DNA from: Gammaproteobacteria bacterium | GTDB lineage: Bacteria > Pseudomonadota > Gammaproteobacteria > Pseudomonadales > Azotimanducaceae | DNA length: 64,000 nt | Reading direction: 5' to 3' | Assembly (NCBI GenBank): GCA_026707735.1 | Contig: JAPOWH010000019.1 | Location: 124,001-188,000, forward strand | In this document: positions 60,436-60,654 of the stretch, piece after piece | How positions within the stretch are numbered: the stretch's first letter is position 1 | How the letters are laid out: each line of letters begins with the position of its first letter | Translations under genes and position numbers: made by a program | Notes under the pieces: model-generated | Database searches by the model: none | Seen by the model: the letters and a program-made list of their open reading frames with translations, nothing else | What the model was told of the DNA's origin: nothing

Positions 60436-60654
60436 ATGGACGTAAAAATTACCTACTGCAATTCTTGAGGCTACAAACCCAAAGCGGCCAGTTTGGCTGC
60501 AAAGTTGGAACACGAATTCCAAGCCAGCGTTGAACTGATTGCTGGCGGTGGTGGCATCTTCGATGTAGACGTGAACGGAGATTTAGTCTACTCAAAGCAT
60601 CAAACGGGAGAGTTTCCTAACGAAGAAAGCCTAGTCGCTGAATTGCGGGCTTAG
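60436..60654 (+). CDS. SelW/Rdx-family selenoprotein with in-frame UGA
   Basis: A 72-residue thioredoxin-like redox protein of the Rdx (SelW/SelT/SelH) family, with selenocysteine at residue 11 encoded by TGA at 60466-60468. The N-terminus is MDVKITYCNSU, so the motif is C8-N-S-U11, exactly the CxxU of SelW. After the UGA the frame stays open for 61 codons and shows the family pattern GGGGIFDVDVNGDLVYSKH followed by TGEFP, which rules out chance. It ends at TAG 60652-60654. A hairpin 22 bases after the UGA fits a bacterial SECIS. The ribosome-binding site is weak. A reading that stops at the UGA would give only 10 residues. The convergent thiG lies downstream. Confidence 0.88.
60479..60508 (+). 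promoter_or_regulatory. Candidate bacterial SECIS element
   Basis: GCGGCCA (60484-60490) pairs with TGGCTGC (60494-60500), 7 bp including one G-U, around loop GTT (60491-60493). A lower stem CCAA (60479-60482) and TTGG (60505-60508) adds 4 bp across an internal loop. The apical loop begins with G, 22 bases after the UGA, within the range of the bacterial SECIS model. SelB would bind this loop to decode the UGA. Confidence 0.65.

Follow-up and report, generated by a model that had tools for sequence, protein, structure and literature searches.

The question raised by this locus is whether a TGA codon lying within a short reading frame ends translation or is read as selenocysteine (Sec, U). The frame occupies positions 60436–60654 on the forward strand of the window, i.e., the whole stretch of 64,000 nucleotides that was analyzed, and comprises 72 codons with an ATG start and a TAG stop when its TGA is translated as U; the product then reads MDVKITYCNSUGYKPKAASLAAKLEHEFQASVELIAGGGGIFDVDVNGDLVYSKHQTGEFPNEESLVAELRA. 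The in-frame TGA is codon 11 (60466–60468, forward strand) and completes a CxxU redox motif, Cys8-Asn-Ser-Sec11 (C-N-S-U, residues 8–11; 60457–60468, forward strand), beyond which the frame continues with the GGGGIFDVDVNGDLVYSKH stretch and TGEFP, exactly as the initial annotation of this DNA had read it. The assignment to the SelW/Rdx family made in the same annotation is borne out by two profiles: Pfam PF10262 (SelT/SelW/SelH, Rdx) matches residues 3–71 with 74.2 bits against a cut-off of 22.6 (E = 1e-20), which places the product in the family, and NCBIfam TIGR02174 gives 65.9 bits, above its curated threshold of 34.2. The Rdx/SelW homology spans both sides of the UGA, and in an alignment of 20 sequences (A1) both Cys8 and the U position, written there as C, are invariant. 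The narrower model NF041051 was missed by 0.2 bits (87.8 versus 88). Within its own genome, the gene of the window is the single Rdx match. No clear Shine-Dalgarno sequence was seen 5′ of the ATG in the window copy; the sequence aaaggag is found 5′ of the start in L018 and other relatives. TTG or GTG stands at the position of the ATG in L046, L048 (at 4001) and several other relatives.

Conservation of the TGA was assessed in a set of 58 related genomes, including that of the window, 34 of which contain a protein match. A match with exactly one stop is present in 29 genomes (own genome included), and in all 29 the stop is a TGA at the position of codon 11. Seven further matches, distributed over seven genomes of which two also possess the TGA form, are stop-free and show 28–33% identity; Cys occupies the U position in L043, the one of the seven that was inspected, so that the replacement of U11 by Cys that had been anticipated for homologues was seen in this relative. 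Genome contigs were also scanned with patterns that exclude the U position, derived from an alignment of Sec-type members only. TGA occurs at the codon 11 position in 80/80 of the loci kept, these being the best 80 of 412 relatives and a biased, non-independent set, because of that selection, the Sec-type-only query and the genomes shared among loci. The 80 loci overlap with the 29-genome set, several of them coming from the same genomes, and two (L109 and L113) share one contig. The record titles among the best 80 of 412 name Gammaproteobacteria/Pseudomonadales, Planctomycetota, Phycisphaerae, Acidobacteria, two “Proteobacteria” and a few others, with single records from Alphaproteobacteria, Deltaproteobacteria and Thermodesulfobacteriota. 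The initial annotation had regarded a sense codon in homologues as a sign that the TGA is a sequencing error or a pseudogene stop; what the 29 stop-containing matches and the 80 kept loci carry at this position is, in every case, TGA. No match was found in the phage collection.

The sequence following the UGA differs from that of the closest relative with a dN of 0.110 and a dS of 1.331. Among the 29 genomes, the median dN/dS for this part of the gene is 0.206 and the maximum is 0.480, as calculated from the 113 usable of 406 pairs (dS of 0.05–2; the other 293 pairs were dropped for length, or with a dS that was undefined or outside this range). These values indicate purifying selection on the sequence downstream of the TGA.

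A hairpin with the features of a bacterial SECIS element lies at 60484–60500 (forward strand), and consists of a 7-bp stem (60484–60490/60494–60500) and a GUU loop (60491–60493). It begins 15 nt after the UGA, and the G at the first loop position lies 22 nt after the UGA, in agreement with the stem-loop described in the initial annotation, which had also called for a SECIS prediction here. The rules for bacterial SECIS elements, as set out in passages of PMC13188914, comprise a loop of 3–9 nt, a stem of 4–16 bp, a G in the first two loop positions, a spacing of 16–37 nt and an MFE of at most −7.5 kcal/mol. The hairpin conforms to every one of them (loop of 3 nt, stem of 7 bp, G first, spacing of 22 nt, and MFE of −13.1 kcal/mol over 45 nt), though many chance sequences pass too: the same rules accept 182 of the 2029 TGAs on both strands of the window and, among 2000 versions of the gene recoded at random with synonymous codons, 581; a stem of ≥6 bp is present in 67 and 219 of these, respectively. 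Of the 2000 recoded versions, 597 fold at least as well as the native sequence, and the z-scores for folding of the window sequence alone are −0.91, −0.36 and −1.23 for 40, 53 and 71 nt, respectively. On a single sequence the hairpin is unremarkable and not above chance; the SECIS was therefore rejected as a proof from one sequence.

The comparison of relatives gives a different type of evidence for this element. In a set of 81 sequences (70 distinct), the seven pairs of the stem correspond to 490 cells, 98.4% of which show standard pairing, as against 16–48% when the partner is slid by 1–3 columns. Changes on both sides occur in three of the seven pairs (33 cells in total); the pair 21–33, for instance, is G-U in 38 of the 70 sequences, C-G in 19, G-C in five, U-A in five, U-G in two and unpaired in one. 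Because the pairs 21–33 and 24–30 both join third codon positions, the protein sequence leaves their joint change unexplained. In a shuffle control (500 shuffles, five measures), the observed values were reached by no shuffle for three measures and by two and five shuffles for the others; since related rows inflate the shuffle counts, more weight is given to the sliding control and to the contrast between two serine codons. The Ser19 codon straddles the upper end of the stem and the first part of the loop; it is AGT in 79/79 serines among the 81 rows (the other two being Gly and Arg), despite six possible codons, whereas Ser53, present in 80 of the 81 rows, is encoded by TCG (31), TCC (27), TCA (10), AGC (10) and TCT (2), and never by AGT. 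The fixation of AGT at Ser19 together with the covariation is therefore interpreted here as a sign that the RNA itself is under selection. All 81 of 81 rows have the loop G, and the apical part, nearly frozen across loci titled Gammaproteobacteria, Planctomycetota and Acidobacteria, is almost always A-G-U-Y-U on top of a C-G, U-A or G-C pair. A tentative and rather unlikely extension of this pattern is that the recognition code of SelB is tighter in this group than in the general bacterial SECIS model, and that selW spread between phyla with its SECIS as a unit. Models of the bacterial SECIS could be improved with the help of this set of synonymous-site covariations.

The reading of the UGA as Sec implies a complete machinery, and the initial annotation had predicted SelA, SelB, SelC and SelD elsewhere in the organism. 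All four genes were found in the own genome (3,367,782 bases in 29 contigs, 95.8% complete). The tRNA-Sec scores 71.9 bits against a gathering score of 47 and has the anticodon TCA (UCA), with ten weaker tRNA-Sec matches falling below the cut-off; selA matches with 515 bits, selB, which adjoins selA, with 367 bits, and selD, on contig C7 approximately 3.6 kb from the tRNA-Sec, with 273 bits. The selD sequence is part of a 729-aa frame (L125:8552–10741, reverse strand) in which a Pyr_redox_2 domain is followed by the AIRS domains, and CGGC, a CxxC motif, precedes the AIRS domain. This domain order and the CxxC are shared with the Ndh-SelD fusion described in passages of PMC2398784, from which no difference was seen; according to the same passages, nearly one in two Cys-type SelDs from the marine samples studied there is such a fusion with CxxC. 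Among the related genomes, selA was found (E ≤ 0.001) in 29/29 genomes with the UGA form, where G032 contributes sub-threshold fragments alone, and in 12/29 genomes without the UGA form, where the G034 match is sub-threshold (Fisher p = 5e-7, kinship not corrected). Eight genomes of the same family (G004, G022, G026, G028–G030, G034 and G035) have selA and no selW match, and selW therefore need not be the sole user of the machinery.

The best explanation of these observations is a functional SelW-like (Rdx) selenoprotein gene, the UGA at codon 11 of which, we infer, is decoded as Sec through SelB and Sec-tRNA-Sec; we place the probability of this reading at approximately 0.97. The roles of SelA, SelB and SelD in the pathway are established. 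In this organism, SelD, fused to an NADH-dehydrogenase-like domain, would make selenophosphate, SelA would convert Ser-tRNA-Sec to Sec-tRNA-Sec, and SelB carrying Sec-tRNA-Sec would bind the hairpin downstream of the UGA and decode codon 11 as selenocysteine. The evidence from homology and comparison lies far beyond chance, and a chance frame was rejected on the basis of the TGA in relatives, the covariation and the dN/dS values. Chance, a pseudogene and a sequencing error are all very unlikely. A genuine premature stop, or a miscalled base in an ordinary Rdx gene with Cys (TGT or TGC), would be in keeping with the errors that assemblies can carry and with the distant stop-free Rdx genes of related genomes mentioned above, but the identical TGA recurs in 28 other genomes from this bacterial family and in all of the best 80 of 412 loci, purifying selection acts downstream of it, and the RNA hairpin is kept by synonymous compensatory changes; such a defect is thus extremely improbable.

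Reading of the UGA by another route, either general recoding to Trp or Cys or near-cognate read-through, has no specific support and is also very improbable, if slightly less so than a defective gene. Against it stand the four Sec genes of the own genome, the selA that accompanies the UGA gene in the 29 genomes, and the agreement of the hairpin with the published bacterial SECIS model, all of which favor decoding of the UGA as Sec.

The 72-residue product was modeled with AlphaFold2 from the single sequence, and the five models have mean pLDDT values of 85.7, 84.8, 63.2, 45.6 and 42.5. The best model (85.7) shows the secondary-structure order E-H-E-E-E-H, with the first strand at residues 2–8 and the first helix at 14–28, and places CNSU (residues 8–11) between them, as is characteristic of the family; the model is a predicted thioredoxin-like fold of the SelW type. 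A Foldseek search of the PDB with this model gave 23 matches (E ≤ 0.001). They are without exception chains of eight entries for SelW-related proteins and MIEN1, namely, 2fa8, 2p0g, 2ojl, 2obk, 3dex, 2oka, 2npb (mouse SelW) and 2ljk (MIEN1), and the same eight entries were found by a sequence profile search. The fold is shared with mouse selenoprotein W (2npb) and with the bacterial SelW-related structures 2fa8, 2p0g, 2oka and 2obk, the TM-scores (query length) of the first 23 matches being 0.63–0.84. The window gene differs from that of mouse selenoprotein W in the position of the recoding signal: here it is a hairpin within the coding sequence, whereas the eukaryotic SECIS is located in the 3′ UTR, as stated in parts of PMC1088965. 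By analogy with the family, the product is most likely a CxxU oxidoreductase of the thioredoxin fold, and the pair Cys8-x-x-Sec11 would probably form a selenenylsulfide while cycling in thiol redox chemistry. The neighboring genes say little on function. A protein-kinase gene lies upstream, and thiG, thiS, an FAD oxidoreductase gene and thiC lie downstream on the other strand; a thiG-containing cluster adjoins selW in 9 of 81 loci, including the window, although some of the loci are not long enough to reveal it. The wider neighborhood of the 81 loci gave no usable functional hint, the larger clusters being mixed with shadow frames.

Descriptions of SelW-like selenoproteins from marine bacteria date from 2005 and 2008 (PMC1088965, PMC2398784), and the statement of the initial annotation that the bacterial family was already known is supported by the portions of these two papers that concern it. 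In those portions, SelW-like proteins are reported to have a bacterial SECIS (PMC1088965), and a count for ocean samples gives 427 SelW-like proteins (CxxU) in the Sec form and 56 in the Cys form, SelW-like and SelD being the most widespread selenoproteins there (PMC2398784). Few or no Cys homologues of SelW-like proteins are noted in Sec-containing organisms in a passage of PMC1794560. As far as these passages of the three papers go, the window gene agrees with them; it shares the family, the CxxU and a bacterial hairpin just after the UGA with the SelW-like selenoproteins of the Sargasso Sea and Global Ocean Sampling sets (PMC2398784, PMC1088965), and shows no difference in kind from them, only the particular genome being different. 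A partial literature search by title or abstract opening returned no publication on selW in this lineage. Both the phenomenon and the family are thus known, and what is new is this gene in this genome; knowledge of the SelW-like family is unchanged by it. Its presence means that selenoprotein synthesis very probably takes place in this gammaproteobacterial lineage, which is known from MAGs and has kept selW and its recoding signal under selection. Selenoprotein genes are often wrongly annotated: in an excerpt of PMC12013277, a correct NCBI annotation is reported for only 195 of the 298 selenoprotein genes known from 20 test genomes.

A motif scan of the window for TGA codons close to a Cys yielded 51 frames, including the selW gene. 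The other 50 were judged by eye to be unconvincing; one of them, which we take to be glmU, runs on past its TGA stop. Elsewhere in the own genome, the frame matched by formate dehydrogenase is free of stops, and PF02627 (CMD family) has no match. The matched part of an AhpC/TSA-like gene on contig C18 (L127, C18:516300–518700; match at C18:517312–517704, reverse strand) contains a single TGA, located in TTNWUPYC (UxxC). A SECIS-like hairpin, GCAGCU-AGUUG-AGCUGC, comes after it, and the AGUU loop of this hairpin resembles that of the selW hairpin. Judging from these sequence features, this gene is likely to be a second selenoprotein gene of the genome. The number of large redoxin-containing frames in this 3.4-Mb genome is striking: there are 37 AhpC/TSA matches, 23 of which lie inside frames of 491–723 aa. 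One such match, to AhpC-TSA/Redoxin at residues 44–153, is in L125:10866–12845 (reverse strand), where no other Pfam family was detected at E ≤ 0.001. The matches are located on C15, C2, C10, C5, C18, C9 and other contigs, and some are clustered, as on C15 at 87–94 kb and 218–230 kb.
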